Below are positions 17,405 through 52,645 of a stretch of DNA of 64,000 nt, in pieces (within the stretch, counting starts at the first letter, position 1; each line of letters begins with the position of its first letter). Source of the DNA: Phytopythium helicoides (Eukaryota > Oomycota > Peronosporomycetes > Pythiales > Pythiaceae); the NCBI GenBank assembly GCA_024867545.1, contig JANFNE010000060.1, forward strand, positions 186,001 through 250,000. The letters run 5' to 3'. The translations under genes were made by a program, and so were the position numbers. The notes below the pieces were generated by a model that saw only the letters and a program-made list of their open reading frames with translations, made no database searches and was not told the origin of the DNA.

Positions 17405-17672
17405 GCTTTGCCCTGTCGTCCTCGAGGTGTGGTCGTTGGAATGCACACGTCATTCGTAATCTACCAATTCTCGGTCAGCAGCTGCGTCACAATCTCGGCA
17501 TAGCACCAATGAGTCATTACGGTGCTGCTGTGTGACAGTATTCACCTTCGCTCCAACGGCTTCTTCGCGACGACCTCGTTCTCTGCCTCTCATTCGCGAA
17601 GTCGCTTTTGCCGCCTCCAGCACCTCAGCAAGCTCACTGACCACCGACCTTGGTGGTTGGAGATCGCTGGTC

Positions 17673-19802
17673 ATGCCCAAGCGCAAGAAGACAGACGAGG
17701 AAAAGGACTGGGACAAACACCACTCGTTCACGAGCGTCACGTGCAGGCTTCAGCAGTTGTGTGAAGACCCCGACCTCATAGACGAGATTCAGCGATCCTG
17801 CGTCGTGTTCAAGCAGATCACGTCCGAGGCGTGGCACCTCGCGAATATGCACGTGCTCCGTTGCCTGCAAGCTCAAGGTGAACTGCCGCGTCTTGATCAG
17901 ACGTTCTTCTCCTGGTGTTGCCACGCCGTTCGAGCTCAAGGTCTCGGTGCAACCAGCTCAGCGACCACTGATTTTCGACAGACGGCCAGTCTGTACCGTG
18001 CCGAGCGGGCACGTATTGAGGGCTACACGCCGCCGGCTACAGCTTCTCACGACCACGATCAGCTGTTGTGGCTCGCGGAGCAGATGCGGATCAACACCAG
18101 GAACATGGTCGTGTTGAACTTCGAGAAACGACTTACAATGTACGCGCGACTGTTGCTCGAAGAGCGCCAAGAAGAATTGCGTTTGATGGAGATGGAAGAC
18201 AGACCAGCTCTGGAGACTGCTTCAATGGCGATGGAAGATGCGCCACAGCATAGAGAGCGTTCGACCACGACAACTCGTACCCACCAGAACATTGAGCAGC
18301 CAGCAGTCACCCGAGCTCAGATCAATCGTCTCGTGACAGCGTGCTACCGACCGAGCGATGGAGAGTTCACAGTGGATGAGCAGCAGCTCCGTGGATGGCT
18401 CGAGCTTGAACCCCACCAATCTGTCATTGAGAGAAATCTTGAGCACTTCGTCAAGAAGCTGTACGTCATCCTCCAAAAGGTCGAAGCATCGCAGCGCCGG
18501 GATCCAAACAAAAAAGGCATTCGATCGTTCTCTCTGCTCCCATGTTCGGCGAGTTATGTCCCGAGCCACATTATCATCAACCGAACAACGCTACACGGAT
18601 TCTGCTCCAGGGTTTTCGAGTCGACTGGCGGTCGAAACACACTACTGATACCTCAAGGTGTGAGAGCTGGAACGCTCAGCACTGCCGTTACCATCCAGCA
18701 GAAAGGTGCCATACTCCGACAGCTATTCTCTGTGAGCAAGTTTGAGACGATGAAGGTCGACGCAGGCATTTCAAAGGCGGACTTTAACGACATGGACCAC
18801 GACAGTAAGGCGCCGATTGCAAGCCGACTATTTGCTCACCAGATAACGTCGGACGGTTACTCTGCCTCTGTGTTACTGACTCGTCCAAAGTCAGCTCACG
18901 ACGTGAAGATCGAGGAGCTCAAAAAGGAGCGCAGAAAAGGCAAGAAGCGACGGAAGCTGGCGGCGGAAGCCGAGGTCGACTACGAGTGGGAATCGCTGCC
19001 AAGCAACTACGCGCCGGACATGCTGATCGGAGTCGATCCTGGGCTGCGCAATTTGTGCACTGCTGCACGAGAGGGTGAGGTCTTACCAACTATCAAGGGT
19101 GCAGTTCAACCACGAAGCAATATCACGCAGATTCATACGCGAGAGTATCGCCATCTTGCAGGCATGAAGAAGCAGCGGTTCTGGTTTGAGAATCTAAAAA
19201 AGCGCGATCATCGATACAGCGATGTGCTGACTAGGCTCCCGTCGTTCAAGTGCTCCGACTTTGACGTCTACGTGGAGCACCTTCGCATCTACTGGGCGAG
19301 TGTCGCGTACCTGGTCGAGTTCTGCGCCAGCAATGCTTTCCGAAAGCAGCGGTTCATGGTCAAGCGGATGAAGGCCAAGACCCTGGACGCAATGGCCAAG
19401 CGTGTCGTTCCTGTAGCAAGCCCTCAGGTTATCATCGGGTATGGCGACTGGAGTGTTCGTGATGGGATCCGTGGCCACGGCCCCACACCAGTGAAAGGGT
19501 TTCGGCATGCGCTGCAGAAGCGAGCGAGAGTGGTAACAATCGACGAGTTTTGCTCGAGCAAACTGTGCTCCAGTTGCCACCAGCCACTTCGCAATGCAGT
19601 GCTGCCGCAGTTTCGCGACGGCGAGACGGAGCTGATCACCACCAAGAATGTCCTGCGCTGTCACTCCAGCGATTGCAGGGCGCTCTTTTGGGATCGTGAT
19701 GTCAATGCGGCGCTCAACATGCTGACTCTGCTCAGGGCCAAGCTGCGTGGAGATCCACGACCAGCAGCTTTCTGTCGAGGACCAGCAGTGATGCATGCGT
19801 GA
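17673..19802 (+). CDS. Fanzor RNA-guided nuclease (copy 1)
   Basis: 709 residues from ATG 17673. It is the eukaryotic relative of IS200/605-IS607 TnpB, a RuvC nuclease guided by an RNA from its own 3' end. The N-terminal half is a helical, family-specific region. PKRKK (2-6) and KKERRKGKKRRK (417-428) are nuclear-localisation candidates. RuvC-I is LIGVDPGLRN with D455. The strand that carries the TnpB catalytic Glu reads VIIGYGDWS (586-594) with no Glu; the likely replacement is E625 in TIDEFCSSK. The zinc finger is C632, C635, C663, C668, and RuvC-III is D676 in WDRDVNAALNML. The open frame extends 47 codons upstream without ATG; copy 3 has a stop there, so the MPKRKK start is preferred. Copy 1 is the most diverged of the five (for example EGVLPT-like and CRGPAVMHA variants). 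Confidence 0.93.
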   Translation: MPKRKKTDEEKDWDKHHSFTSVTCRLQQLCEDPDLIDEIQRSCVVFKQITSEAWHLANMHVLRCLQAQGELPRLDQTFFSWCCHAVRAQGLGATSSATTDFRQTASLYRAERARIEGYTPPATASHDHDQLLWLAEQMRINTRNMVVLNFEKRLTMYARLLLEERQEELRLMEMEDRPALETASMAMEDAPQHRERSTTTTRTHQNIEQPAVTRAQINRLVTACYRPSDGEFTVDEQQLRGWLELEPHQSVIERNLEHFVKKLYVILQKVEASQRRDPNKKGIRSFSLLPCSASYVPSHIIINRTTLHGFCSRVFESTGGRNTLLIPQGVRAGTLSTAVTIQQKGAILRQLFSVSKFETMKVDAGISKADFNDMDHDSKAPIASRLFAHQITSDGYSASVLLTRPKSAHDVKIEELKKERRKGKKRRKLAAEAEVDYEWESLPSNYAPDMLIGVDPGLRNLCTAAREGEVLPTIKGAVQPRSNITQIHTREYRHLAGMKKQRFWFENLKKRDHRYSDVLTRLPSFKCSDFDVYVEHLRIYWASVAYLVEFCASNAFRKQRFMVKRMKAKTLDAMAKRVVPVASPQVIIGYGDWSVRDGIRGHGPTPVKGFRHALQKRARVVTIDEFCSSKLCSSCHQPLRNAVLPQFRDGETELITTKNVLRCHSSDCRALFWDRDVNAALNMLTLLRAKLRGDPRPAAFCRGPAVMHA

Positions 19803-19872: not shown

Positions 19873-20519
19873 GCAATCTATCATATAAAAACGGATGTGC
19901 AGTGCTTCAACGCCATGAATATTGGCAGGGTTACTGCATCAAGTTGATGTGATTACTTGAGTGCATCTTGTCGCCACGAGATGTGGACTTTGTTTGCTTG
20001 AATCTACAGTGCAGAGCTTGTAAGGTGGGTGTCCTGCTCGGTTTGCGGCTGGTGTAACAACTTACTTGAGTATGAGGTGGAATCTCACTCAACGATGATT
20101 GAAGTCCTGCCAATGGCTTCCGAAATACAGACACCATAACCCTCTACTGTACCGCCACGAGTTCATGAAATACCGCTGGATTCTCACAGCATGCTCCTTG
20201 TTCATGGAGTTGCAGCAGTGGCAACCGTTTTTCGCACCGCAATGACCAAGCACATCAGCAAGGATCACAGGCTGAAGCTGAAGTGGATACGTCAGCGAGT
20301 CGTTGTTTATGGCGTTGAAGGCGTACAGCAACCATATTCCGCCAGACGATCACCAAATCGATCCCTCGCATCGAGTAGATGACACCTGTCAAATGACTTT
20401 AGAGTAATCGACAGATCCTGAGGTCAAGTGCAGCGATGCTTCAGCCTTCTGCATTTTGATTGTGTGTGTTGTCGAACGTGCGACTCTCGCGCCGCTACTT
20501 CAGTCGACAACTTTCCATC
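19873..20519. other. Region between Fanzor E1 and GHR 2
   Basis: No complete gene. Contains the R1 repeat (20088-20268), and otherwise unremarkable sequence up to the GHR 2 start. Confidence 0.5.
20088..20268 (+). repeat. R1: ~180 bp host fragment also found beside Fanzor E2 and E4
   Basis: Matches the minus strand of 34962-35140 (R2) and 48203-48375 (R3). One frame reads YRHEFMKYRWILTACSLFM then ELQQWQPFFAPQ and a stop, so it may be the 3' end of an old gene. R1 is not followed by a Fanzor element; the similarity stops at AAGGATCAC, exactly where R2 and R3 enter the element flank. Confidence 0.7.
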
Positions 20520-21458
20520 ATGACCGCACCTTACCGATCTTACATCCAACCAGAAGCAGACGCTGAGTTTCCTGCTGAAGCTGGTCGCTATCACCTCTAC
20601 GTGGCTCTCGCATGTCCGTTCGCGTGCCGAGCTCTCGCAGCTCGCAACCTCAAGGGACTCGAGAACATCATCGGACTTTCGGTTGCTCATCCAGTGCACA
20701 ACAAGACCAAGCCGAACGACCCTGATGACACGCACTATGGATGGACGCTCGTGGACCCTGCGACGGAGCCCACGCTCACGTCAATCAATGGAAGAACCTA
20801 TTCGACCGCCGGCTGCATCCCTGACACGGTCAACCACGTGCGCTTTGTCCGCGACTTGTATGAGCTGGTGGACAAGGAGCCACGACGATACACGGTGCCG
20901 ATCCTGTGGGACAAGAAGAAGCAAATGATCGTATCGAATGAGTCAGCCGACATTCTTCGCACGCTCAACACAGGTTTCCGCGCGTTGATCCCGTCGACTG
21001 TGGATTTGGTGCCTGCCGATCGCGAGCAGGAGCTGAACGAGGTTAACGAAGGCATTGTCTCGGAGATTAACGTCGGGTTGTTTGGGGTGCTCTTGGCGAA
21101 GGACGAGCAGAGCAAGAAGGAGGCTAACAAGCGTGGAAAGGAAGCACTTGAAAAGCTCGACCACATCCTCGCAACGAAGCGCTACCTTCTTGGTGACACC
21201 ATCACGGAGGCCGACGTGCGCGCGTTCCATATCCTGGTCCGTCTTGATGTGAACCTGACGAATGATAACTACGAGGAGTTCACCAAGCACGAGAACATTG
21301 TCGGGTATCTGCGAGATCTGTACCAGATTCCGGGGATGAAGTCATCGCTCGACTGGGAGCACATGAAGGTGGGCTTTCGAAACTACGAGCCAGACTCTGC
21401 GGACGCACAAGGTCCGTTTGTCGACTACGAGGCCCCGCACACGCGCGCGAGTCTGTAA
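20520..21458 (+). CDS. Glutathionyl-hydroquinone reductase-like GST (GHR 2)
   Basis: 312 residues from ATG 20520 (MTAPYRSYIQPE); the open frame upstream has no ATG. The active-site motif is LACPFACRA, glutathione-site segment VPILWDKKKQMIVSNES, and C-terminal GPFVDYEAPHTRASL. Intronless. It is the only plus-strand member of the array and belongs with GHR 1 and 6 by the LAARNLKGL signature. It lies downstream of Fanzor E1 on the same strand, separated by the R1 fragment. Everything expected for a working enzyme is present. Confidence 0.9.
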   Translation: MTAPYRSYIQPEADAEFPAEAGRYHLYVALACPFACRALAARNLKGLENIIGLSVAHPVHNKTKPNDPDDTHYGWTLVDPATEPTLTSINGRTYSTAGCIPDTVNHVRFVRDLYELVDKEPRRYTVPILWDKKKQMIVSNESADILRTLNTGFRALIPSTVDLVPADREQELNEVNEGIVSEINVGLFGVLLAKDEQSKKEANKRGKEALEKLDHILATKRYLLGDTITEADVRAFHILVRLDVNLTNDNYEEFTKHENIVGYLRDLYQIPGMKSSLDWEHMKVGFRNYEPDSADAQGPFVDYEAPHTRASL

Positions 21459-21507: not shown

Positions 21508-23040
21508 GAAGCTGTATTGCGTTGTCTGGCATAGGCTTTAGTCGATCTATCTTCTCCTGGTATGGTCAATGTTTCTAACATTTTTCGATCTTATTGCGTT
21601 TTTGAATGTCGGGGTTTGCCTGCACCGATGAGGAATGTGAAAATCTCTCTTGCAGGGTAAACCGGAGGGAGCAAGAATAGTATTCTAAATGCACCACTGC
21701 AGATGCTTCGATTCCTTGGCTTGAGGCCTCACTGAGAAGAAAAAATTCGTGATACGCGTCTAGATGATTGTGTTGAAGCGATTCGTGTTTGAATGTGATT
21801 TGCAAGTACACCGTTTAGGTCCTTAGTTGGAAGACCATCACACTATAGCGTTGGTTGTGGACTCTGTGAGAGTTTCTCAACGAGTCATATGCGACTCATG
21901 CTGGCAAGTGATCGAGATTCCTGCGCATGAGAAGAATTGCGCAGTGATACACAGAAACACCTGATCAGGTAGTCGTATGGATACGACACAAGAGAACTTC
22001 AGTTTTCAGTATGAAAGGAGTTGTCCCGTTCAATTGATGCAGTCAGGATACAACTGGACGATTGCATCCCTACTCCACATCTTACAGACTGGCGCGCGTG
22101 TGCGGCGCGTCGTAGTCGACGAACGGACCCTCAACACTTGGGTTACGGCTGATCGCGCTGATCTTGAGGTGTTCCCAGTTGACGGTTGCCTTGAGAGCCG
22201 GCGTCTGGTACAGATCACGCAGGTACCCCACAATGTGCTCGTGCTTGGTGAGCTTCTCGTGGTTCTCCTTCGTCAGGTATACGTCAAGGCGGATCAGCGT
22301 GCGGAAGATGCGGATGTCGGCTTCGGTGATGCTGTGACCAACCAGGTAACGCTTGGTCGCGAGGATATCGTTGAGCTTCGCGAGAGCCACAATGGTACGC
22401 TCATCGGAAGCCTTCTTGCTCTCCTCATCCTTGGGGGACACAGATCCAAAGTAACTACTAGCGACCTCTGCCACGATGCCATCGTTGGCCTCATTGAGCT
22501 CCTTCTCAAGGTCAGCTGGAACCAGATCGTAGCTGGTAGCCACGAGCTCGCGGAATCCCCAGTTGAGCGTGCGCAGGATGTCAGCCGACTCGTTCGACAC
22601 GATCGTCTTCTTCTTCTTGTCCCACAGAATCGGCACCGAGAACGCACGCGGCGTCTTGTCCACGATCTCGTACAGGTCGCGAGCGAACTTGGCGTTGTTG
22701 ACCGTATCGGGGATGGAGCCGATCGTGGGGTAGATCCTGCCATCGGCGGCCGTGACGGTGGGCGTCGTCGCAGGGTCCACGAATGTCCAGCCAGAGTGCG
22801 AGTCGCTGTCGTCACCGGGGCGAGTCTTCTGGAAGATCGGGTGGGCGACCGAGAGTCCGACGATGTCCTGGAGGTTGCTCAAGTTGCGCGATGCCAACGC
22901 ACGCGATGCAAATGGACACGCGTATGCCACGTAGAGGTGGTAGCGACCAGCTTCGGCCGGGAACTCTGCATCGGCGTGAGGCTGGATGTAGGAGCGGTAG
23001 GGAGCAGGAGCAGCCATTGCGGAGGTGAGGTGGAGATCGA
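21508..23040. repeat. Segmental duplication, copy A (with GHR 3)
   Basis: From TGTATTGCGTTGTCTGGCAT at about 21511 to just upstream of the GHR 3 start, this ~1.5 kb is closely similar to 25418-26950, including ~500 bp of non-coding sequence 3' of the gene. Confidence 0.8.
22082..23017 (-). CDS. Glutathionyl-hydroquinone reductase-like GST (GHR 3)
   Basis: 311 residues from ATG 23017 (MAAPAPYRSYIQPH). Active-site YACPFASRA, then LASRNLSNLQDIV, a subgroup signature shared with GHR 5 and 10. VPILWDKKKKTIVSNES and GPFVDYDAPHTRASL complete the family pattern. Intronless. Upstream on the minus strand CTCACTCCCCGATTC is a weak core-promoter match that supports this start over a longer frame. It is the duplicate of GHR 5, and the encoded proteins are most different around residues 195-215 (SSYFGSVSPKDEESKKASD here). 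Confidence 0.9.
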   Translation of the reverse strand: MAAPAPYRSYIQPHADAEFPAEAGRYHLYVAYACPFASRALASRNLSNLQDIVGLSVAHPIFQKTRPGDDSDSHSGWTFVDPATTPTVTAADGRIYPTIGSIPDTVNNAKFARDLYEIVDKTPRAFSVPILWDKKKKTIVSNESADILRTLNWGFRELVATSYDLVPADLEKELNEANDGIVAEVASSYFGSVSPKDEESKKASDERTIVALAKLNDILATKRYLVGHSITEADIRIFRTLIRLDVYLTKENHEKLTKHEHIVGYLRDLYQTPALKATVNWEHLKISAISRNPSVEGPFVDYDAPHTRASL

Positions 23041-23682: not shown

Positions 23683-24621
23683 TCAGAGGCTGACGCGGTT
23701 GTGCGGGGCGTCATAGTCAATGAACGGACCCTGCAAGTCCGGCGAGTCCGGGTTATGGTTGCGCATGATAAACTTGAGGTGCTCCCAGTTGACGGTCGAC
23801 TTGATCGCAGGTGTCTGGTAGAGGTCGCGCAGGTAGTTCACGATGTTCTCGTGCTTCGTCAGCGTCGTGTGGTTCTCCTTCGTCAAGCTCACGTCCAGAC
23901 GGATGAGCGTGTTGAACACACGGATATCAGCTTCCGTGATGTTGTCGCCGACTAGGTAGCGCTTCGAGGCAACAGCCTCGTTAAACTTCTCGAGTGCCAC
24001 ACGGCAGCGCTCCGCAGCCGCCTTTGTGGCCTCCTCGTCCTTGGCGAAGATACCACCGTAGAAACCGGCGCTGACCTCAGCAACGATGCCGTTGTTGACC
24101 TCATTGAGTTCCTTCTCAAGCTCAGCAGGCACCAGGTCCACGTTCGAAGGCACCAACTCACGGAAACCTGTGTTCAGTGTGCGAAGAATGTCCGCAGACT
24201 CGTTCGACACGATCGTCTGCTTCTTCTTGTCCCACAACAGAGGAACCGTGTACCGACGCGGCTCTTTGTCCACCATCTCGTACAAGTCACGCACGTAGCG
24301 CGCATGGTTGATCGTATTGGGAATGCAGCCTTCCGTCGAGTACGTCCTACCAGTGACGCCGGTGAGCGTGGGCTCGACCGTAGGATCCACGAAGGTCCAT
24401 CCGAGGTGCGAGTCCTCTGGGTCGTTCGGCTTGGTCTTGTTGAAGATTGGGTGCGCGATCGAAATGCTAATGACGTCTTCGAGTCCGAGAAGGTTGCGAG
24501 CAGCAAGAGTTCCGCAGGCGAACGGACACGAGTAGGCGATGTAAAGGTGGTAGCGACCAGCTTCGGCAGGGAACTCTGCGTCGGCGTTGGGCTGGATGTA
24601 CGAGCGGTAGGGGGCGGCCAT
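23683..24621 (-). CDS. Glutathionyl-hydroquinone reductase-like GST (GHR 4)
   Basis: 312 residues from ATG 24621. Active-site YSCPFACGT, where the Arg/Ala usual after CPFAC is replaced by Gly-Thr. VPLLWDKKKQTIVSNES and GPFIDYDAPHNRVSL are normal. A longer frame begins at 24723 and would add a mitochondrial-looking N-terminus. However, that stretch is the translation of the promoter block at 24669-24685, so the shorter start is preferred. Intronless, same strand as GHR 3 and 5. Confidence 0.88.
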   Translation of the reverse strand: MAAPYRSYIQPNADAEFPAEAGRYHLYIAYSCPFACGTLAARNLLGLEDVISISIAHPIFNKTKPNDPEDSHLGWTFVDPTVEPTLTGVTGRTYSTEGCIPNTINHARYVRDLYEMVDKEPRRYTVPLLWDKKKQTIVSNESADILRTLNTGFRELVPSNVDLVPAELEKELNEVNNGIVAEVSAGFYGGIFAKDEEATKAAAERCRVALEKFNEAVASKRYLVGDNITEADIRVFNTLIRLDVSLTKENHTTLTKHENIVNYLRDLYQTPAIKSTVNWEHLKFIMRNHNPDSPDLQGPFIDYDAPHNRVSL

Positions 24622-25417: not shown

Positions 25418-26950
25418 GTATTGCGTTGTGTATTGCGTTGTCTGGCATAGGCTTTAGCCGATCTGTCTTCTCCTGGTATGGTCAATATGATTTTTTTTTT
25501 TTGCGTTTTTGAATGTCGGGGTTTGCCTGCACCGATGAGGAAAGTGAAAATCTCTCTTGCAGGGTAAACTGGAGGGAGCAAGAATAATATTCTAAATGCA
25601 CCACTGCAGATGCTTCGATTCCTTGGCTAGGGGCCTCACTGAGAAGAAAAAATTCGTGATACGCGTCTAGATGATTGTGTTGAAGCGATTCGTGCTTGAA
25701 TGTGATTTGCAAGCACACCGTTTAGGTCCTTAGTTGGAAGACCACCAAACTATAGCGTTAGCTGTGGACTCTGTGAGAGACTCTCAACGAGTCATATGTG
25801 ACTCATGCTGGCAAACGATCGAGATTCCTGCGCATGAGAAGAATTGCGCAGCGATACACAGAAAGTCCTGATCAGGTAGTCGTATGGATACGACACAAGA
25901 GAACTTCAGTTTTCAGTATGAAAGGAGTTGTCCCGTTCAATTGATGCAGTCAGGATACAACTGGACGATTGCATCCCTACTCCACATCTTACAGACTGGC
26001 GCGCGTGTGCGGCGCGTCGTAGTCGACGAACGGACCCTCAACACTTGGGTTACGGCTGATCGCGCTGATCTTGAGGTGTTCCCAGTTGACGGTCGCCTTG
26101 AGAGCCGGCGTCTGGTACAGATCACGCAGGTACCCCACAATGTGCTCGTGCTTGGTGAGCTTCTCGTGGTTCTCCTTCGTCAGGTTCACATCAAGGCGAA
26201 TCAGCGTGTGGAAGTTGCGGATGTCAGCTTCGGTGATGCTGTTGCCAACCAGATAACGCTTGGTCGCGAGGATGTCGTTGAGCTTCGCGAGAGCCACAAT
26301 GGTGCGTTCGTTGGCAGCCTTCTTTCCCTCCTCGTCCCTGGCGAATGAGGCTCCAAAGAAACCGCCGGCGAGCTCTGCCACGATGCCGTCGTTGGCCTCA
26401 TTGAGCTCCTTCTCGAGCTCAGTCGGTACTAGGTCGTAGCTGGTAGGCACGAGCTCGCGGAATCCCCAGTTGAGCGTGCGCAGGATGTCAGCCGACTCGT
26501 TCGACACGATCGTCTTCTTCTTCTTGTCCCACAGAATCGGCACCGAGAACGCACGAGGGGTCTTGTCCACGATCTCATACAGGTCGCGAGCGAACTTGGC
26601 GTTGTTGACGGTGTCGGGGATACATCCATCCGTGGGATAGGTCTTTCCATCGGCGGCCGTGACGGTGGGCGTCGTCGCAGGGTCCACGAATGCCCAGCCA
26701 GAGTGCGAGTCGCTGTCGTCACCGGGGCGAGTCTTCTGGAAGACCGGGTGGGCGACCGAAAGTCCGACGATGTCCTGGAGGTTGCTGAAGTTGCGAGATG
26801 CCAATGCACGCGACGCAAACGGGCATGCGTAGGCCACGTAGAGGTGGTATCGTCCAGCCTCGGCCGGGAACTCTGCGTCGGCTTGTGGCTGGATGTAGGA
26901 GCGGTAGGGAGCAGGAGCGGCCATTGCGAAGGCGAAGTGGAGAACGAGTA
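25418..26950. repeat. Segmental duplication, copy B (with GHR 5)
   Basis: Second copy of 21508-23040. A poly-T run at about 25489-25501 replaces a mixed sequence in copy A. The remaining non-coding part differs at scattered bases only. Confidence 0.8.
25989..26924 (-). CDS. Glutathionyl-hydroquinone reductase-like GST (GHR 5)
   Basis: 311 residues from ATG 26924 (MAAPAPYRSYIQPQ). Near-identical paralogue of GHR 3, created by the segmental duplication. It keeps YACPFASRA, VPILWDKKKKTIVSNES and GPFVDYDAPHTRASL. The best core-promoter match in the GHR array (26981-26996) sits 57 bases upstream and fixes the start; an upstream frame is open but starts before the promoter. Intronless and apparently functional. 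Confidence 0.9.
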   Translation of the reverse strand: MAAPAPYRSYIQPQADAEFPAEAGRYHLYVAYACPFASRALASRNFSNLQDIVGLSVAHPVFQKTRPGDDSDSHSGWAFVDPATTPTVTAADGKTYPTDGCIPDTVNNAKFARDLYEIVDKTPRAFSVPILWDKKKKTIVSNESADILRTLNWGFRELVPTSYDLVPTELEKELNEANDGIVAELAGGFFGASFARDEEGKKAANERTIVALAKLNDILATKRYLVGNSITEADIRNFHTLIRLDVNLTKENHEKLTKHEHIVGYLRDLYQTPALKATVNWEHLKISAISRNPSVEGPFVDYDAPHTRASL

Positions 26951-37745: not shown

Positions 37746-38123
37746 GGTGGTGGTGGTCGGGAGGAAGGAAGGCAGGGAGGAAGGTCTCAGCTGCAGCGCG
37801 ACTTCAGAAATGCACCACTCATCGCGATTTGCATGGTTAGTCTCCTCTACTCTTACATTGCATAATTGGCTATATTGATAACAGTATACAGATGTTTGTA
37901 TCATGAATAACCTTTAATAGTAAATGTTATGATGTATATTTGTGCTAGTTGGCTGTGCGTATTTTGACTGGATGACCTCACCGTTGACACGCGAGAACTG
38001 TGAGTTTTGCGGATTTGCCCAGACGAGTCCGCCGTTGCAGATCGATCGATCACCGAGTGCAACTGGTTGAAGCGGTGCACAGTCGAGCTTCTAGCAGTGC
38101 ATCAATCCTCATAGCTTTGCTGG
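37746..38123. other. Intergenic region, start of duplicated block
   Basis: From about 38010 rightward the sequence is duplicated at 48426-48800. No gene in the left part. Confidence 0.5.
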
Positions 38124-38370
38124 TCACAGACCCTCGCGGCCGTGGGGAGCGTCGTAGTCAACGTATGGACCCGTGAGGACGGCGTCGTCGGCCTCGTCCT
38201 TGTGGTTCATGACGCCGATGCGCAGGTGGTCCCAGTTGACCGTCTTGCGGAATGCTGGCATCTGGTACAGCTCGCGCATGTACTGTTCTCATTCATCAAG
38301 ATGAGCACACAAATCGGTGGGCAAGCATCTACATACAAATAGCGGCAACGTACCCCGACGACGTTGGTGA
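38010..38370. repeat. Duplicated block, copy A (GHR 8 3' end)
   Basis: About 360 bp, including the last exon, intron and the NVVG-coding end of exon 1 of GHR 8, repeated almost exactly at 48426-48797. Confidence 0.8.
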
Positions 38371-39135
38371 ACTGCATGAGCGTAGGCGACGATCCGTCCT
38401 CTACTGCACGCTGGAGGCAATCGATGCGGATAAGCAGATAGAAAAGACGGACGTCCGCCTCCGTGATGCCTGCACCAGCCACGACGTATCGGCCCTTCGC
38501 GAGCAGGTCGTCCAGCCGCGCGAGTGCCGGGAAGACGTTCTTCAACTCGCTCTCCGTCTCCTCCGCAGTGTGTGCGAAAGCTGCTTTCGTGTACGCCGCT
38601 CCGATTTCGGCGACGATGCCGTTGTTGGCTTCTTCGATCTGAGCTTCGATGGCAGGAGGAAACAAATCGATTGCGTTCGACTCTGGCACGAGCTCGCGGA
38701 AGCCCGTGTTGAACGTTCGAAGGATGTCGGCCGACTCATTCGACACGATCGTCTGCCTTCACCTTGTCCCACAGGATCGGTACCGGAGAACTTGCGCGGA
38801 GTCATGTCGACCATCTCGTACAAGTCGCGAGCAAACTTGGCATTATTGACTGTGTCAGGGATGCAACCTTCCGTCGAGTAGACTCGACCGTGCAGCCCTG
38901 TGACCATTGGCTCGTTCGCAGGGTCGACGAATGTCCAGCCGCGATGCGTGTCGGCTGCATCGTTGGGCTTGGTCTTCTGGAAAATCGGGTGCACGACCGA
39001 CAAGCCGATCACATTCTCGAGCCCCTTGAGGTTGCGTGCTGCCAGAGCTCGACTCGCAAATGGGCATGCGTACGACACGTACAGATGGTACCGGTCTTTG
39101 GCGGCAGGGAACTCGGCGTCGGGATGTAGGAACGG
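38124..39135 (-). pseudogene. GHR 8, broken and cut by Fanzor E3
   Basis: Two exons, with a 71 bp intron at 38283-38353 (GTACGT..CAG) at the same NVVG position as GHR 7. Damage seen: the ATG and first codons are missing, the reading starts at YRSYI directly against the right end of E3; a small deletion then shifts the frame before DAEFPAAKDRYHLYV; two extra bases near 38770-38790 break VPILWDKKKQTIV. The active-site YACPFASRA and C-terminal DYDAPHGREGL are still readable. It is a pseudogene unless the indels are sequence errors. Confidence 0.8.
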
Positions 39136-41349: not shown

Positions 41350-41639
41350 GACCAGCGATCTTCAACCACCAAGGTCGGTGGTCAGTGAGCTTGCTGATGT
41401 TCTAGAGGCGGTAAAAGCGACTTCGCGAATGAGAGGCAGAGAACGCGGTCGTCGCGAAGAAGCCGTTGGAGCGAAGGTGTGCAATGAGAACGTAACTGTC
41501 AGACAGCAGAGCCATAATGACTCATTGGTGCTATGCCGAGATTGTGACGCAGTTGCTGACATGTGCCTTTGCTGGCATGGTGAAGGTTGCATCATCTCGT
41601 TATAGTCAAACCGCAACAGTTCCACACCCCAGCAGAGAA

Positions 41640-42042
41640 ACGGTGAGGTGCTGTGGGGTCGAGATCTCCCAGATCAGATGTTGCAGTCAAGACGCGCATC
41701 AAGGCTGGACGCTCCCCATTGCGACAAGGCGCGCATTTGGGCTGAAAACGGCACTATTCGTCCTCGGCGACGGAAATGCAGAGTGTGGTGACGAGCTGAC
41801 TCTCACTTTCTGATACTTTGAGTTGTCCTTGAATAGCATTTCACTCTTGAGCAATCTCACACTCGAGCAATCACGAGCTCCTTCTTGAGTTGGATGATGC
41901 TGGCGTCGTTACCGCAGAATCGCAAACTCCCCCCAATGAAGAAATTCCCCATATTGGCGGAGATCTTTCTCCGAAGCTCTCGCAAACTGCAGTGATATCA
42001 CAATCCACAATCACCGCAGCCCCAATTCAGTTCTCTAATTGA
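41640..42042 (+). pseudogene. Fragment of a TKL kinase gene
   Basis: 41640-41800 matches the C-terminal lobe of the kinase gene at 27669-31022 (GEV.WGRDLPD onward) with frame-breaking indels. About 60 bases later an open segment to TGA 42042 reads protein-like (SSNHELLLELDDAGVV, TPPNEEIPHIGGDLSPKL, QSTITAAPIQFSN), perhaps from another part of a related gene. No start or complete domain. Confidence 0.6.
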
Positions 42043-45200: not shown

Positions 45201-45700
45201 CGCGAGCCTGCCGCCATCCGAATTGCAGTTTCACCTTTAAAGTTTATCGCATCAACGTCGGCACCGTTCTCAACAAGATACTTGACTGCTTCCACGTTAT
45301 TTTTCTTCGCTGCCTTCATCAGCGCAGTTTCTTGAGTTGAATCTCTTATATTGATGTCAGCTCCACACTCAATGAGGCACCGGAGTCCTTCGTAATAGCC
45401 ATTGTTAGCAACGATGACGAGCAAAGGAATCATAGTGATTTTCTTCAAGTAGGTGCCTTCAGCAGTTGCAACTCTGCGGTATAACGTCTCGTTTCGATCG
45501 ATCACATCAACTAGTGCGCCTTGTAACGCCAAATACTTCACCACATCGAAATGTCCTCGATAAAGCGCAACCATGAGCGGTGTTTGCCCGTACTCTGACT
45601 CAGCGTTGGGATTCGCGCCACGACGAATCAAGGTTTCAACATGCGGGAGGTTACCTTTTCGCGCTGATTCAAACAGCTGAAAGTCGATAGATCTTATCAT
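42297..45700 (-). pseudogene. Decayed ankyrin-pseudokinase-kinase gene
   Basis: Reading from ATG 45700: four to five ankyrin repeats (FQLFESARKGNLPHVETLI, GQTPLMVALYRGHFDVVKYL, ETALMKAAKKNNVEAVKYL). After a one-base shift near 45210 comes a kinase-like domain whose catalytic loop is HGNLQCKN and whose DFG is TSF, a pseudokinase. After a shift near 44300 come a linker and a second kinase with GKGGFGCAY, VVVKE, HGDIKGNN and TDFGLSF. Two more shifts (near 43045 and 42930) interrupt its C-lobe, and a probable fifth comes before a helical tail ending at 42297. Domain order parallels the intact 27669 kinase. Several frameshifts in one locus favour a true pseudogene. Its ATG directly abuts the right end of Fanzor E4. 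Confidence 0.75.
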
Positions 45701-45784
45701 TATAGTATCCCTGGACTACATACAGGTTCAAACTACTGTGTACGCTTAACTCCCTCGCGCACGTCGCGGTGTTGCCGCTGCAGC
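45701..45784 (-). ncRNA. Candidate Fanzor omega RNA (copy 4)
   Basis: Conserved tail, with GCGGCAACACCGC preserving the first hairpin stem despite a loop change. It ends TGTAGTCCAGGGATACTATA, immediately followed by the ATG of the ankyrin-kinase pseudogene. Confidence 0.6.
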
Positions 45785-47914
45785 TCACGCATGCATCACT
45801 GCTGCTCCTCGACAGAAAGCTGCTGGTCGTGGGTCTCCACGCAGCTTGGCCCTGAGCAGAGTCAGCATGTTGAGCGCCGCATTGACATCACGATCCCAAA
45901 AGAGTGCCCTGCAATCGCTGGAGTGACAGCGCAGGACATTCTTGGTGGTGATCAGCTCCGTCTCGCCGTCGCGAAACTGTGGCAGCACTGCATTGCGAAG
46001 TGGCTGGTGGCAACTGGAGCACAGTTTGCTCGAGCAAAATTCGTCGATTGTCACCACCCTCGCTCGCTTCTGCAGCGCATGCCGAAACCCTTTCACTGGT
46101 GTGGGGCCGTGGCCGCGAACTCCATCGCGAACACTCCAGTCGCCATACCCGATGATAACCTGTTGGTTTGCAACAGGAACGACACGCTTGGCCATCGCGT
46201 CCAAGGTCTTGGCCTTCATCCGCTTGACCATGAACCGCTGTTTTCGAAAAGCATGGCTGGCGCAGAACTCGATCAGGTACGCGACACTCGCCCAGTAGAT
46301 GCGAAGGTGCTCCACGTAGACGTCAAAGTCGGAGCACTTGAACGACGGGAGCCTAGTCAGCACATCGCTGTATCGATGATCGCGCTTTTTTAGATTCTCA
46401 AACCAGAACCGCTGCTTCTTCATGCCTGCAAGGTGGCGATACTCTCGCGTATGAATCTGCGTGATATTGCTTCGTGGTTGAACTGCACCCTTGATAGTTG
46501 GTAAGATCTCGCCCTCTCGTGCAGCAGTGCACAAGTTGCGCAGCCCAGGATCGACTCCGATTAGCATGTCCGGCGCGTAGTTGCTTGGCAGCGATTCCCA
46601 CTCGTAGTCGACCTCGGCTTCCGCCGCCAGCTTCCGTCGCTTCTTGCCTTTTCTGCGCTCCTTCTTCAGCTCCTCGATCTTCAGGTCGTGAGCCGACTTC
46701 GAACGAGTCAGTAACACAGAGGCAGAATATCCGTCCGACGTTATCTGGTGAGCAAATAGTCGGCTAGCAAACGGCGCCTTACTGTCGTAGTCCATGTCGT
46801 TAAAGTCCGCCTTTGAAATGCCTGCGTCGACTTTCATCGTTTCAAACTTGCTCACAGAGAATAGCTGTCGGAGTATGGCGCCTTTCTGCTGAATGGTAAC
46901 GGAATTGCTGAGCATTCCAGCTCTCGCGCCTCGAGGCATTAGTAGTGTGTTTCGACCGCCAGTCGACTCGAAAACCCTGGAGCAGAATCCGTGTAGCGTA
47001 GTTCGGTTGATGATAATGTGGCTCGGAACATAACTCGCCGGACATGGTAGGAGAGAGAACGATCGAATGCCTTTTTTGTTTGGATCCCGGCGCTGTGATG
47101 CTTCGACCTTTTGGAGGATGACGTATAACCTCTTGACGAAGTGCTCAAGATTTCTCTCGATAACAGACTGGTGCGGTTCGAGCCCGAGCCATCCACGAAG
47201 CTCCTGCTCATCCGCAGTGAACTCGCTGTCGCTCGGTCGGTAGCACGCCATCACAAGACGGTTGATCTCAGCTCGGGCGACCGTTGGCTGCTCAACGTTC
47301 TGGTGGGGACGAGATGTCGTGGTTGGATGCTCTCTGTGTTGTGGCGCATCTTCCATCGCCATCAAAGCAGTCTCCAGAGCTGGCCTGTCCTCCATCGCCA
47401 TCATACGCAACTCTTCTTGGCGCTGTTCGAGCAACAGTCGAGCGTACATCGTGAGTCGTTTCTCGAAGTTCAACACGATCATGTTTCTGGTGTTGATCCG
47501 CATCTGCTCCGCAAGCCATACTAGCTGTGAGTGGTCGTGTGAATCGATAGCTGCCGGCGTGTAGCCCTCAATACGTGCCCGCTCGGCACGGTACAGACTG
47601 GCCGTCTCTCGAAAATCAGTGGTCGCTGAGCTGGTTGCACCGAGACCCTGAGCTCGAACGGCGTGGCAACACCAGGAGAAAAACGTCTGATCAAGACGCG
47701 GCAGTTCACCTTGAGCTTGCAGGCAACGGAGCACGTGCATATTCGCGAGGTGCCACGCCTCCGACGTGATCTGCTTGAACACGACGCAGGATCGCTGAAT
47801 CTCGTCTATGAGGTCGGGGTCTTCACACAACTGCTGAAGCCTGCATGTGACGCTCGTGAACGAGTGGTGTTTGTCCCAGTCCTTTTCCTCGTCGGTCTTC
47901 TTGCGCTTGGGCAT
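45785..47914 (-). CDS. Fanzor RNA-guided nuclease (copy 4)
   Basis: 709 residues from ATG 47914, frame intact with all active-site and zinc-finger residues. Variants include TPAAIDSHDHSQLVW, RNMIVLNF, LLLEQRQEELRMM, LTRSKSAHDLK and DMDYDSK. The block LIPCPASYVP/ESTGGRNTLLM resembles copy 1, while the rest follows copies 2 and 5. Located between the ankyrin-kinase pseudogene (3' side) and a fragment of GHR 8 (5' side). Confidence 0.92.
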   Translation of the reverse strand: MPKRKKTDEEKDWDKHHSFTSVTCRLQQLCEDPDLIDEIQRSCVVFKQITSEAWHLANMHVLRCLQAQGELPRLDQTFFSWCCHAVRAQGLGATSSATTDFRETASLYRAERARIEGYTPAAIDSHDHSQLVWLAEQMRINTRNMIVLNFEKRLTMYARLLLEQRQEELRMMAMEDRPALETALMAMEDAPQHREHPTTTSRPHQNVEQPTVARAEINRLVMACYRPSDSEFTADEQELRGWLGLEPHQSVIERNLEHFVKRLYVILQKVEASQRRDPNKKGIRSFSLLPCPASYVPSHIIINRTTLHGFCSRVFESTGGRNTLLMPRGARAGMLSNSVTIQQKGAILRQLFSVSKFETMKVDAGISKADFNDMDYDSKAPFASRLFAHQITSDGYSASVLLTRSKSAHDLKIEELKKERRKGKKRRKLAAEAEVDYEWESLPSNYAPDMLIGVDPGLRNLCTAAREGEILPTIKGAVQPRSNITQIHTREYRHLAGMKKQRFWFENLKKRDHRYSDVLTRLPSFKCSDFDVYVEHLRIYWASVAYLIEFCASHAFRKQRFMVKRMKAKTLDAMAKRVVPVANQQVIIGYGDWSVRDGVRGHGPTPVKGFRHALQKRARVVTIDEFCSSKLCSSCHQPLRNAVLPQFRDGETELITTKNVLRCHSSDCRALFWDRDVNAALNMLTLLRAKLRGDPRPAAFCRGAAVMHA

Positions 47915-48202
47915 GACCAGCGATCTCCAACCACCAAGGTCGGTGGTCAGTGAGCTTGTTGAGGTGCTGGAGGTGGCAAAAGCGACTTCGCGAATGAGAG
48001 GCAGAGAACGAGGTCGTCGCGAAGAAGCCGTTGGAGCGAAGGTGTGCTGTGAGAGCGTAACTGTCAGACAGCAGAGCCATAATGACTCATTGGTGCTATG
48101 CCGAGATTGTGACGCAGTTGCTCACATGTGCCTTTGCTGGCATGGTGAAGGTTGCATCGTCTCGTCAAAGTCAAACCGCAATGACGTTTGCACTTGAGTA
48201 GT

Positions 48203-48375
48203 AATCCTTGTTGATGTGCTTGGTCATTGCGGTGCGAAAAACGGTTGCCACTACTGCAACTCCATGAAGAAGGAGTATGCAGTGCGAATCCAGCGGTATT
48301 CCATGAACTCGTGGCGATAGAGGGTTATGGTATTTGTATTTCGGATGCCATTGACACAACTTCAATCATCGCTAA
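48203..48375 (-). repeat. R3: host fragment flanking Fanzor E4
   Basis: Nearly the same as R2 (34962-35140) up to the CGCTAA end, then different sequence. Relates to R1 at 20088-20268. Confidence 0.7.
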
Positions 48376-48425
48376 GTGAGATGCAAATGCAGTTCCTGCA
48401 CTGCCCAATTGCAGATCAACATGAG

Positions 48426-48797
48426 TTTTGCAGATTTGACCAGACGAGTCCGCCGTTGCAGATCGATCGATCACCAAGTGCAACTGGTTGAAGCGGTGCA
48501 CAGTCGAGCTTCTAGCAGTGCATCAATCCTCATAGCTTTGCTGGTCACAGAGCCTCGCGGCCGTGGGGAGCGTCGTAGTCAACGTATGGACCCGTGAGGA
48601 CGGCGTCGTCGGCCTCGTCCTTGTGGTTCATGACGCCGATGCGCAGGTGGTCCCAGTTGACCGTCTTGCGGAATGCTGGCATCTGGTACAGCTCGCGCAT
48701 GTACTGTTCTCATTCATCAAGATGAGCGCACAAATCGGTGGGCAAGCATCTACATACAAATAGCGGCAACGTACCCCGACGACGTTGGTGAACTGCG
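48426..48797. repeat. Duplicated block, copy B (GHR 9 fragment)
   Basis: Copy of 38010-38370. Similarity stops just inside exon 1 after FTNVVG. Confidence 0.8.
48545..48797 (-). pseudogene. GHR 9: 3' fragment of GHR 8
   Basis: Contains the complete last exon (48545-48703, YMRELYQMPAFRK..DYDAPHGREAL), the intron beginning GTACGT, and only the FTNVVG end of exon 1. The rest of the gene is missing, so it cannot encode an enzyme. Confidence 0.85.
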
Positions 48798-49135
48798 TGA
48801 GCTTATCATTGCTGACTCTTGCCAACGTCTTCACTTCTTCACTTGCCAGCGAAACGAGGAATGCTTTGACGAGGGGAGGAAGGCTGCATTCCATCCTCAT
48901 GGCGTGGTAGCTCGCTCCAATTCCCTCTAGGTGCTACTCTTCCAGGGAAGAATCCTGGATGCTGGCCGGTCTGACAAAATCCACTGTAAAGCACATTAAC
49001 CTCAGACACACCTGCCAGTCAGGTGCGGTGAGGTGCACATGCATAGGCTGACGCTACCGAATAAAGTCCACCGTGATTGTACATGAAAATCAAATGAAGT
49101 GCTTTGAAGATCGTTGATCATTGTCATTACGGTAT
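48798..49135. other. Intergenic region, no gene seen
   Basis: No open frame with family resemblance. Ends at the 3' end of GHR 10. Confidence 0.5.
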
Positions 49136-50138
49136 CTACAGCCTGCTCCTGTTGTGCGGGGCCTCGTAGTCGAGGTGTGGACCGGGTAGTTCTGGGCTCC
49201 CAGGCTTGCGATTTTTGAGGCTCAGTCGCAGGTGATCCCAGTTCACTGTTTTCTTCAGCCCAGGGATCTGGTACAGCTCTCGCAGATACTGGTGGGAGGC
49301 AGGCATCACACCAGTTAGTGATAGATCATAATATACGATAGCAGGAAACCACTCACCCCCACGACGTTCGGGAAGGCCTCGAGACTCGGGTCTGCGTCCG
49401 TCACGTCCACACGAATAAGCGTGAAGAAGAGTCGTACGTCTGCCTCCGTCAAGCCCAAGTCGAGGCACTACGTATCTCGACTCATTCAGTAGTGTCTCGA
49501 GCTTCGAGATACCACTGAACACGTTCTTCCACTCAGCGCTCGACACCTCCTGATCAGTAGCGAATGCCGACTTGAAGTATGCGCTCGTAATCTCCGCCAC
49601 GATACCGTTGTTGGCTTCTTCGACCTCCTTCTCGTGTCCCGCAGGATACAGGTCAAAGTTGGTGGGCACGAGCTCGCGGAAGCCCGAGTTGAGCGTCCGC
49701 AAGATGTCGGCCGACTCGTTTGACACGATCGTCTGCTTCTTCTTGTCCCACAGGATCGGCACGGAGAACGCGCGCGGCGTCTTGTCGACCATCTCGTACA
49801 AGTCGCGAGCGAACTTGACGTTGTTGACCGTGTCGGGAATGCAACCAAAGGTCGAGTAGGCCGAGCCGTCAGCAGGCTGTGACCGTCGATGTTGTTGAAG
49901 GGTCTACGAATGTCCAGCCAGAGTGCGAGTCGCTCTCATCTCCAGGTCGAGTCTTCTGGAAGATCGGGTGCACGACCGAGAGGCTTACGACATCTTCAAG
50001 ATTGCTTAGGTTGCGGGACGCCAGCGCGCGGGACGCAAAGGGACACGAGTAGGCGACGTAGAGGTGGTAGCGACCAATCTCTGCCGGGAACTCGGCGTCG
50101 GCCTCTGGCTGGATGTACGAGCGGTAGGGAGCAGCCAT
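49136..50138 (-). pseudogene. GHR 10, two frameshifts
   Basis: ATG 50138 (MAAPYRSYIQPE) opens a normal GHR start with YSCPFASRA. An extra base near 49878 (GCC TGC TGA) gives an early stop; the next frame continues through VPILWDKKKQTIVSNES. A second shift near 49460 precedes the segment LTEADVRLFFTLIRVDV. A 68 bp intron (49289-49356, GTGAGT..CAG, with CTAAC upstream of the acceptor) sits at the conserved NVVG position. The end is DYEAPHNRSRL. Either a young pseudogene or two sequencing errors. It is head-to-head with Fanzor copy 5 and shares its upstream block with GHR 1. Confidence 0.75.
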
Positions 50139-50150
50139 TGTTGAATGATG

Positions 50151-50169
50151 TCAAATTGACAAGTGACTC
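50151..50169 (-). promoter_or_regulatory. Inr/FPR-like promoter of GHR 10
   Basis: Minus strand GAGTCACTTGTCAATTTGA, the same as at GHR 1; 13-31 bases before the ATG. Confidence 0.55.
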
Positions 50170-50449: not shown

Positions 50450-52579
50450 ATGCCCAAGCGCAAGAAGACAGACGAGGAAAAGGACTGGGACAAACACCAC
50501 TCGTTCACGAGCGTCACGTGCAGGCTCCAGCAGCTGTGTGAAGACCCCGACCTCATAGACGAGATTCAGCGATCCTGCGTCGTGTTCAAGCAGATCACGT
50601 CCGAGGCGTGGCACCTCGCGAATATGCACGTGCTCCGTTGCCTGCAAGCTCAAGGTGAACTGCCGCGTCTTGATCAGACGTTCTTCTCCTGGTGTTGTCA
50701 CGCCGTTCGAGCTCAGGGTCTCGGTGCAACCAGCTCAGCGACCACTGATTTTCGAGAGACGGCCAGACTGTACCGTGCCGAGCGGGCACGTATTGAGGGA
50801 TACATGCCGCCAGCTATCGATTCACACGACCACTCACAGCTGGTATGGCTTGCGGAGCAGATGCGGATCAACACCAGGAACATGGTCGTGTTGAACTTCG
50901 AGAGGCGACTCAAGATGTACGCTCGACTGTTACTCGAAGAGCGCCAAGAAGAGTTGCGTTTGATGGCGATGGAGGACAGGCCGGCTCTTGAGACTGCTTT
51001 GATGGCGATGGAAGATGCGCCACTACACAGAGAGCATCCAACCACGACATCTCGTCCCCACCAGAACGTTGAGCAGCCAGCTGTTGCCCGAGCTGAGATC
51101 AACCGTCTTGTGATGGCGTGCTACCGACCGAGCGACAGCGAGTTCACTGCGGATGAGCAGGAGCTTCGTGGATGGCTCGGGCTCGAACCGCACCAATCTG
51201 TCATCGAAAGAAATCTTGAGCATTTCGTCAAGAAGCTGTACGTCATCCTCCAGAAGGTCGAAGCCTCGCAGCGCCAGGATCCAAACAAAAAAGGCATTCG
51301 ATCATTCTCTCTGCTCCCATGTTCGACGAGTTATGTTCCGAGCCACATTATCATCAACCGTACAACGCTACACGGATTGTGCGCCAGGGTGTTCGAGTCG
51401 ACTGGCGGTCGAAACGCACTACTGATGCCTCAAGGCGCGAGCGCTGGAAGGCTTAGCAGTTCCGTTACCATTCAGCAGAAAGGTGCCATACTCCGAGAGC
51501 TATTCTCTGTGAGCAAGTTTGAGACGATGAAAGCCGACGCAGGCATTTCAAAGGCGGACTTTAACGACATGGACCACGACAGTAAGGCGCCGTTTGCTAG
51601 CCGACTATTTGCTCACCAGATAACGTCGGACGGATATTCTGCCTCTGTGTTACTGACTCGTTCGAAGTCGGCTCACGACCTGAAGATCGAGGAGCTGAAG
51701 AAGGAGCGCAGAAAAGGCAAGAAGCGACGGAAGCTGGCGGCGGAAGCCGAGGTCGACTACGAGTGGGAATCGTTGCCAAGCAACTACGCGCCGGATATGC
51801 TGATCGGAGTCGATCCTGGGCTGCGCAACTTGTGCACTGCTGCACGAGAGGGTGAGGTCTTACCAACTATCAAGGGTGCGGTTCAACCACGAAGCAATAT
51901 CACGCAGATTCATACGCGAGAATATCGCCACCTTGCAGGCATGAAGAAGCAGCGGTTCTGGTTTGAGAATCTAAAAAAGCGCGATCATCGATACAGCGAT
52001 GTGCTGACTAGGCTCCCGTCGTTCAAGTGCTCCGACTTTGACGTCTACGTGGAGCACCTTCGCATCTACTGGGCGAGCGTCGCGTACCTGGTCGAGTTCT
52101 GCGCCAGCCATGCTTTTCGAAAGCAGCGGTTCATGGTCAAGCGGATGAAGGCCAAGACCTTGGACGCGATGGCCAAGCGCGTCGTCCCAGTTGCAAGCTC
52201 ACAGGTTATCGTCGGGTATGGCGACTGGAGTGTTCGCGATGGAGTTCGCGGCCACGGCCCCACACCAGTGAAAGGGTTTCGGCATGCGCTGCAGAAGCGA
52301 GCGAGGGTGGTAACAATCGACGAGTTTTGCTCGAGCAAACTGTGCTCCAGTTGCCACCACCCACTTCACAATGCAGTGCTGCCGCAGTTTCGCGACGGCG
52401 AGACGGAGCTGATCACCACCAAGAATGTCCTGCGCTGTCACTCCAGCGATTGCAGGGCGCTCTTTTGGGATCGTGACGTTAATGCGGCGCTCAACATGCT
52501 GACTCTGCTCAGGGCCAAGCTGCGTGGAGACCCACGACCAGCAGCTTTCTGTCGAGGAGCAGCAGTGGTGCATGCGTGA
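50450..52579 (+). CDS. Fanzor RNA-guided nuclease (copy 5)
   Basis: 709 residues from ATG 50450, frame intact. Catalytic and finger ligands are conserved; the finger loop is CHHPLHNAV and the RuvC-II strand VASSQVIVGYGDW. Other variants: NFERRLKMYARL, KADAGISKADF, CRGAAVVHA. Residues ~121-134 match copies 2 and 4, and the region before RuvC-II matches copy 1 (VAS.QV), another mosaic pattern. The frame is open 45 codons upstream from a TTG, which is not used as a start here. Divergent from GHR 10. Confidence 0.92.
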   Translation: MPKRKKTDEEKDWDKHHSFTSVTCRLQQLCEDPDLIDEIQRSCVVFKQITSEAWHLANMHVLRCLQAQGELPRLDQTFFSWCCHAVRAQGLGATSSATTDFRETARLYRAERARIEGYMPPAIDSHDHSQLVWLAEQMRINTRNMVVLNFERRLKMYARLLLEERQEELRLMAMEDRPALETALMAMEDAPLHREHPTTTSRPHQNVEQPAVARAEINRLVMACYRPSDSEFTADEQELRGWLGLEPHQSVIERNLEHFVKKLYVILQKVEASQRQDPNKKGIRSFSLLPCSTSYVPSHIIINRTTLHGLCARVFESTGGRNALLMPQGASAGRLSSSVTIQQKGAILRELFSVSKFETMKADAGISKADFNDMDHDSKAPFASRLFAHQITSDGYSASVLLTRSKSAHDLKIEELKKERRKGKKRRKLAAEAEVDYEWESLPSNYAPDMLIGVDPGLRNLCTAAREGEVLPTIKGAVQPRSNITQIHTREYRHLAGMKKQRFWFENLKKRDHRYSDVLTRLPSFKCSDFDVYVEHLRIYWASVAYLVEFCASHAFRKQRFMVKRMKAKTLDAMAKRVVPVASSQVIVGYGDWSVRDGVRGHGPTPVKGFRHALQKRARVVTIDEFCSSKLCSSCHHPLHNAVLPQFRDGETELITTKNVLRCHSSDCRALFWDRDVNAALNMLTLLRAKLRGDPRPAAFCRGAAVVHA

Positions 52580-52645
52580 GCTGCAGCGGCGACACCGCGA
52601 CGTGCGCGAGGGAGTTAAGCGTACACAGTAGTTTGAACCTGTATG
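52580..52645 (+). ncRNA. Candidate Fanzor omega RNA (copy 5)
   Basis: Conserved tail through GTTTGAACCTGTATG; thereafter CATGTAGG differs from the other copies. The three short stems described for copy 1 are preserved. Confidence 0.55.

Follow-up and report, generated by a model that had tools for sequence, protein, structure and literature searches.

We analysed a 64,000-nucleotide stretch of the Phytopythium helicoides genome (contig JANFNE010000060.1, positions 186,001 to 250,000; hereafter the window), in which five genes for a TnpB-like protein of the Fanzor type, Fz1 to Fz5, lie among a tandem array of GST-like genes (Table 1). Each is an open frame exactly 709 codons long; two lie on the forward strand and three on the reverse strand. 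The repeated DNA extends from 17474 to 52645, in line with an earlier note on this sequence. D455, E625 and D676 and the cysteines C632, C635, C663 and C668 are present in all five frames, and no in-frame stop occurs in any of them. The sequence MPKRKK at the basic N-terminus and the stretch KKERRKGKKRRK are putative nuclear-localisation signals. The same note called the copies nearly identical, which overstates their likeness: Fz1, Fz2, Fz4 and Fz5 are 94–97% identical to Fz3 in protein sequence, and the synonymous divergence (dS) among the five is 0.10–0.18. The copies are too diverged and too differently flanked to be assembly copies of a single locus, a possibility that the note had raised; it is thus divergence and flanks, not read depth, that argue against it, and the five frames look like separate insertions.

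Table 1. Features of the Fanzor cluster and of the surrounding GST-like array (positions are those of the window)
Feature	Position	Strand	Remark
Fz1	17673-19802	+	intact 709-aa Fanzor frame, ATG to stop
Fz2	32558-34687	-	intact 709-aa Fanzor frame, ATG to stop
Fz3	39220-41349	-	intact 709-aa Fanzor frame, ATG to stop
Fz4	45785-47914	-	intact 709-aa Fanzor frame, ATG to stop
Fz5	50450-52579	+	intact 709-aa Fanzor frame, ATG to stop
Fz1 conserved 3' segment	19821-19868	+	candidate omega-RNA scaffold, ends CTGTATG
Fz2 conserved 3' segment	32492-32539	-	candidate omega-RNA scaffold
Fz3 conserved 3' segment	39154-39201	-	element runs about 16 nt further to GGGATACTA
Fz4 conserved 3' segment	45719-45766	-	element runs 17 nt further to GGGATACTAT at 45702
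Fz5 conserved 3' segment	52598-52645	+	
Whole Fz4 unit	45702-48801	-	captured GST8-type fragment, segment Y, Fanzor and 3' end; flanked by 9-bp duplication AATGATAAG
Fz4 target-site duplication, 5' copy	48802-48810	-	AATGATAAG, at the stop of GST8 homology
Fz4 target-site duplication, 3' copy	45693-45701	-	AATGATAAG
Captured GST8-type fragment	48422-48801	-	exon end, intron and last exon (by eye); 374/380 sites as in 38001-38380
Source-type sequence of captured fragment	38001-38380	-	3' end of GST8
Segment Y upstream of Fz2	34943-35136	-	
Segment Y upstream of Fz4	48182-48375	-	
Segment Y without Fanzor	20093-20268	+	ACGTCA/GCGAGTC here, ACGTCA/TTGCGG in occupied copies
Protein-kinase-gene fragment 5' of Fz3	41639-41801	+	also 5' of the C47 copy
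Full-length GST-like gene	16440-17372	-	
Full-length GST-like gene	20520-21455	+	
Full-length GST-like gene	22085-23005	-	
Full-length GST-like gene	23686-24621	-	
Full-length GST-like gene	25992-26906	-	
Full-length GST-like gene	31148-32083	-	
GST-like copy, matched in pieces	35621-36635	-	
GST-like copy, matched in pieces	38127-39120	-	GST8
GST-like copy, matched in pieces	49139-50138	-	GST9
GST-like copy, matched in pieces	53163-54135	-	

Judged by sequence comparison, the 709-residue protein is a Fanzor1-type TnpB homologue, in agreement with the identity first proposed, and is predicted to be an RNA-guided DNA-cutting enzyme. Fz3, used without its first Met (708 residues) as the query for the Pfam, PDB, genome and relative searches, matches PF07282, the TnpB/Cas12f zinc-ribbon nuclease domain, over the curated cut-off (E=1.2e-6). 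Three PDB sequences have E<=6.7e-6, and all of them are Fanzor1 (from Guillardia, Parasitella and Spizellomyces). With a profile of 11 sequences the best PDB match is SpuFz1 (E=1.4e-18), and every one of the three distinct solved chains found at E<=1 is a Fanzor1. The fingerprints of Fanzors, according to the accessible part of PMC10711439, are DPG at RuvC-I and E-alt, a Glu that stands six residues ahead of CxxC; both are present here, as D455-P456-G457 and E625-x6-C632xxC635. The gap from DPG to Glu is 167 residues, more than the search pattern in that text allows (printed 'x(120160)'). The second pair of cysteines is spaced C-x4-C instead of CxxC. All five frames have the D-E-D triad of RuvC and, between RuvC-II and RuvC-III, a C4 zinc finger. 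Fanzor1 rather than Fanzor2 is indicated by the Fanzor1-only profile matches and by the Fanzor being the only long frame in the units (frames of at least 250 residues considered), with none of that size for the serine recombinase of an IS607-type element. The named relatives are oomycete proteins, from Phytophthora, Nothophytophthora and Globisporangium, and oomycete Fanzors have already been published: the accessible text of PMC3627910 gives six for Pythium ultimum (apparently in its Fanzor1 column) and names several Phytophthora species. Viral contigs gave 51 pattern matches, none of which was confirmed as a relative. An AlphaFold model from the 11-sequence alignment was too poor for use (mean predicted local distance difference test score 44.9).

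At least eight close copies (90–100% identity to Fz3) exist in the genome (49.06 Mb, 100 contigs): the five in the window and one each on contigs C6, C90 and C47. All copy counts are lower bounds (63 of 349 candidates scored). Beyond about residue 684 the C47 copy (L008) no longer follows the family; fused there with unrelated DNA, its frame stays open to 800 codons. Among the 28 pairs of the eight copies, 10 are no more than 40 kb apart, with about 0.05 expected under uniform placement with contig ends ignored. Of the remoter relatives, three are clustered on C22 (63% identity, one of them partial with a stop; 3 of 3 pairs within 40 kb, 0.005 expected), and five more stand at 51–55%. The same genome holds a 659-residue Fanzor family (L017–L028), which like the 709-residue family has a fixed 3' end; it differs in being dispersed (11 of 2211 pairs within 40 kb, 3.6 expected) with many broken copies, and in their C-terminal parts the two families share about 35% identity. 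Its element is 2.63 kb long, with a palindromic left end AATGGCCGGGGTACCCGGC and a right end GAGTGCTAGC. It has at least 67 scored matches, 32 with and 35 without in-frame stops, and 24 of the 67 cover the full 659 residues stop-free at 95–100% identity to the query copy.

The seven complete copies (C47, truncated at its 3' side, was excluded from the right-end work) have a common 3' end, down to CTGTATG (CTGTATA in Fz3), 64–66 nucleotides past the stop, beyond which each meets its own flank. Fz3, Fz4, C6 and C90 share about 16 nucleotides more, ending GGGATACTA (GGGAAACTG in C90), and at its 3' end Fz3 meets GST8 close to where that gene begins (junction judged by eye). The left end TTGCGGTTTGAC is common to five copies, C47 having one change in it. 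The 5' flanks form groups: Fz2, Fz4 and C6 share segment Y, to which Fz4 and C6 add a GST fragment; Fz3 and C47 share a kinase-gene fragment; Fz1 and Fz5 share about 100 bp of GST upstream region; and the flank of C90 is unique. The Fanzor-free segment Y runs straight across the left-end position. No terminal inverted repeats of 10 or more nucleotides join both ends of the three units tested (Fz3, Fz4 and C90), which in this respect are not cut-and-paste transposons of the inverted-repeat kind. Apart from the family and the empty Y segment, searching the genome with the ends returned a single 58-bp match, on C59, and a gene-less 3' end was not found in the genome search.

Two hairpins were noticed near element ends. 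In the Fz4 unit (48175–48233), an 11-nucleotide perfect inverted repeat pairs segment Y (ACCGCAATGAC, 48175–48185 region) with the left-end junction (GTCATTGCGGT), 37 nucleotides apart, a possible 5' hairpin. In two copies of a 690-residue family (L012 and L014, on C72 and C16), a 5-bp hairpin stands at the same offset just past the conserved 3' segment; its arms differ and still pair (GTACT/AGTAC and GCGCT/AGCGC), and GATAACA comes next. These C72 and C16 hairpins are suggestive of a structured right end and not significant over all 16 ends; we make no claim for a second terminal hairpin over the 16 right ends (p=0.054 compared with shuffles).

Target duplications of 7–9 bp were found at Fz4 and C6, both of which carry a GST-gene fragment. 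C6 is flanked by AATCCGT (ACAATCCGT counting two ambiguous bases) at the point where its homology with Fz4 stops. By our own arithmetic, the probability that a match coincides with such a boundary is about 1e-4 at Fz4 and between 1e-3 and 1e-4 at C6. The units of Fz4 and C6 extend past the left end; C90, with the TTGCGG consensus left end, has no duplication. The two duplications are likely an independent case of 3'-anchored one-ended Fanzor transposition in a second eukaryotic lineage, and with their captured GST-type DNA they are datable events. The recent spread that the earlier note had suggested is partly upheld: dS of 0.10–0.18 means that it was not very recent, although no more than 6 of 380 sites distinguish the captured fragment of Fz4 from the sequence it came from. 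Of 12 loci of the 659-residue family, L025 gave no right end; among the rest, only L021 has a duplication candidate at a plausible boundary, namely AATAGAAT at the start of its non-canonical 5' end. Five copies of the 690-residue and C22 families gave no duplications of 8 or more bases.

If the cluster came from tandem or segmental duplication of a block of GST gene and Fanzor, the Fanzor itself would never have transposed. The surrounding GST genes do form a tandem array, three of the five Fanzors share their orientation, and 5' flanks are common within groups. However, all seven complete copies differ in their 3' flanks from about the same element position on, target duplications exist at two copies, and the family is also present on three further contigs, of which two hold pieces of the array as well; we regard block duplication as improbable. 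Copying through RNA by target-primed reverse transcription, with LINE-type machinery acting in trans, would suit the fixed 3' end, the variable 5' ends and the 7–9 bp duplications, and the C6 unit starts at or beside an apparent 5' splice site of a GST intron (by eye). It is nevertheless rather unlikely: judged by eye, the 3' ends lack a tail of poly(A) or simple repeats, Fz4 and C6 keep the putative GST intron, and no other genomic sequence was found with the same 3' end.

Selection or gene conversion had been suggested as keeping the frames open, and both are supported. The ratio of nonsynonymous to synonymous divergence (dN/dS) is 0.13–0.23 among the five copies and 0.13–0.24 across all 28 pairs that the eight form. 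Private changes, that is, changes seen in a single copy only, should be mostly post-insertion. Over the first 682 codons there are 22 nonsynonymous (N) and 30 synonymous (S) private changes among Fz1 to Fz5, and 81 N and 97 S when the eight copies are taken together; neither set includes a stop, and the neutral N/S is 2.36. For C90 by itself, p=9e-6. A phi-like test on the five copies found neighbouring sites more compatible than distant ones (p=3e-4), and Fz3 and Fz4 are identical at 40 consecutive polymorphic sites (positions 1710–2067 of the coding sequence, corrected p=0.004). In windows of 213 nucleotides, the nearest relative of Fz4 alternates among Fz1, Fz2, Fz3 and Fz5. We conclude from these sequence comparisons that the coding regions bear both constraint and gene conversion. 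Between Fz2 and Fz4, 7 of 195 sites (4%) differ in the shared non-coding flanks, and coding dS is 0.13. Their coding parts look older than the insertion because the flanks and the GST fragment are less diverged than dS, which is what conversion from other copies would produce, although constraint on the flanks may also account for it. No such gap exists between Fz3 and C47 (flank distance 0.15, dS 0.18).

Transposable element families show low dN/dS through selection on their active lineages. The cluster might accordingly consist of ordinary element remnants, with per-copy constraint inherited from active ancestors and intactness due to luck, and the 659-residue family does decay, as its in-frame stops tell. 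The omega of that family is 0.58 (11 of 12 loci used; L018, with a frame longer by one codon, was dropped), a value biased to intact copies, all 12 chosen being stop-free. We hold this explanation to be doubtful, for in the 709-residue family the private changes are replacement-poor as well and include no stops, and Fz2 and Fz4 show no damage at the flank and coding divergences given above.

The conserved segment past the stop is probably an omega-RNA scaffold, as its position and conservation suggest. In the seven copies, 0 of 31 sites are variable at positions 18–48 past the stop, compared with 83 of 277 fourfold sites (p=5.5e-5), and a recognisable version of the segment is kept in subfamilies at 51–63% identity. 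A stem can be drawn in it, with G-U pairs and one two-sided change. Rfam and tRNA scans of the window gave no matches. For the idea that a fast-changing guide is encoded inside the element, Fz1, Fz2 and Fz5 are only marginally similar to the segment of about 16 nucleotides (gapped p 0.004, 0.07 and 0.02 compared with Fz4; 0.002 for Fz5 compared with C90; ungapped p 0.08–0.19). RNA-guided homing was considered as the origin of this segment in Fz3, Fz4, C6 and C90, and rejected: the left flanks of Fz4 and C6, which represent pre-insertion targets, are unlike it (by eye), and a search allowing up to two mismatches located it at Fz3, Fz4 and C6 alone.

The explanation to which we lean, with modest confidence, is one-ended transposition of a low-copy Fanzor1 family, followed by selection and gene conversion between the copies. 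A family of about 2.4 kb elements without their own transposase would spread in and around the tandem GST-like array, by copying that is anchored at the fixed 3' end just past the gene and proceeds upstream to variable points, sometimes taking upstream host sequence along. The copies other than Fz4 and C6 would have the same origin, and helper enzymes, possibly Helitron-like, would be supplied in trans. The fixed 3' end would probably also encode the omega-RNA scaffold, with the guide of each copy, and thus its target, coming from the DNA further on. Inserted copies would remain under selection on the protein and swap tracts by gene conversion. A further step, to which we give little credence, is that the cluster is a host-retained battery of Fanzors, kept by selection and homogenised by conversion, with one invariant scaffold and differing guides. 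If true, the battery would be a small multi-guide RNA-guided system of a eukaryote, not mere transposon cargo.

A number of observations weigh against one-ended transposition with later selection and conversion, or against parts of it. No duplication was found at Fz1, Fz2, Fz3, Fz5 and C90, that is, five of the seven complete copies (the search at C6 and C90 covered 1,497 upstream bases only). Matches of 8–9 bases off the boundaries occur at Fz1, Fz3, Fz4, Fz5 and C6, as chance predicts (within 3 kb, 0.37 for at least 9 bases and 0.77 for at least 8 bases); such matches are common, and therefore only a position at a homology boundary carries weight. The L021 candidate is weak, since at that offset L019 and L022 also show 8-base matches, which lie within the element. 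The last 16 or so nucleotides of the right end are missing from Fz1, Fz2 and Fz5. The genome has 33 Helitron_like_N matches, and a Helitron sharing the Fanzor ends was not shown. Taken singly, the private-change test is significant at 0.05 for three of the five copies (Fz1, Fz2 and Fz4) and not for Fz3 (0.056) and Fz5 (0.44), and the conversion tract of Fz3 and Fz4 is the only one that survives correction among 21 pairs. The 3' segment folds no better than shuffles (z +0.62 for Fz4, -0.89 for C2 and +0.29 for C4), and its pair covariation, counted in 12 of 13 sequences with C4 excluded, was matched by 52 of 500 shuffles. The putative 18-nucleotide guides of Fz1, Fz2 and Fz5 match only themselves in the genome at 0–1 mismatch, which is expected if empty sites are absent from the assembly and equally if there are no guides; at two mismatches, Fz2 has two matches and Fz5 one, overall no more than reversed controls.

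Ten GST-like copies occupy 38 kb (16440–54135), and the four matched in pieces are in the half of the array with Fz2–Fz5. The Fanzors had been described as standing among decaying host genes, which holds for at most four of the ten copies; six are full-length, and the split of the copy at 35621–36635 may be an intron. On one side of the array, a run of paralogous-looking frames extends over 1416–16202. Five of them were searched against Pfam, with two RING-finger matches, and one of the RING-finger frames has also a weak PX-domain match below the cut-off. On the other side, 54976–56438 and 61052–62520 are a 1.49-kb duplication (93%) with a gene for a secreted-looking protein (by eye), which has Cys-containing repeats and Thr/Pro-rich linkers, all its Pfam matches being below the cut-off. 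A frame of 471 residues at 58056–59471, with N-terminal MREQH repeats, encodes a DDE_Tnp_4 transposase, which we take to be Harbinger-type.

The role of Fanzors for their hosts or carriers is an open question. A constrained, converting cluster beside a large, partly decayed Fanzor family offers a built-in contrast for asking whether selection is for the element or for the host. A literature search, short on subscription papers and thus weak evidence of novelty, found no such Fanzor cluster described.

Compared with known systems, the family is a new member of a familiar kind of mobile element; what is unusual is its local clustering, with constraint and conversion. The closest pattern is that of the Fanzor1 elements CRe-1, CRe-2 and CRe-3 of Chlamydomonas reinhardtii (Bao and Jurka 2013, PMC3627910), for which the accessible text reports intact 3' ends, truncated or extended 5' ends and mostly 7–19 bp duplications, except at the consensus 5' terminus, a pattern likened by the authors to one-ended IS91 transposition. 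Like the present family, these elements carry a Fanzor1 as cargo and have captured host sequence upstream, and they are described as non-autonomous. The Chlamydomonas elements, in that text, have tens to hundreds of loci, introns and ends like those of verified Helitrons, whereas for the 709-residue family eight copies were found, five of them in 35 kb, with single-exon frames and a Helitron partner not shown. By this analogy, Fz4, C6 and C90 fit the CRe pattern, and the other copies neither clearly fit nor contradict it. Spu-1 (SpuFz1) of Spizellomyces punctatus, as far as the available parts of PMC10432273 and PMC3627910 describe it, is likewise a single-frame Fanzor1 with a locus of about 2.1 kb, a conserved non-coding end and several full-length copies (19 among 42 loci; PMC10432273), and its protein is the best profile match mentioned above; it differs by terminal inverted repeats, of which the three tested 709-residue units have none joining their ends, and by 134 ghost loci, whereas here the genome search found no 3' end without the gene. 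MCi-2 of Mucor circinelloides, in the accessible portion of PMC3627910, resembles the present family in near-identical 3' regions and differing 5' regions, and differs in its 6-kb 3' region, its 11–12 bp duplications and the partial Crypton transposase in one subfamily.

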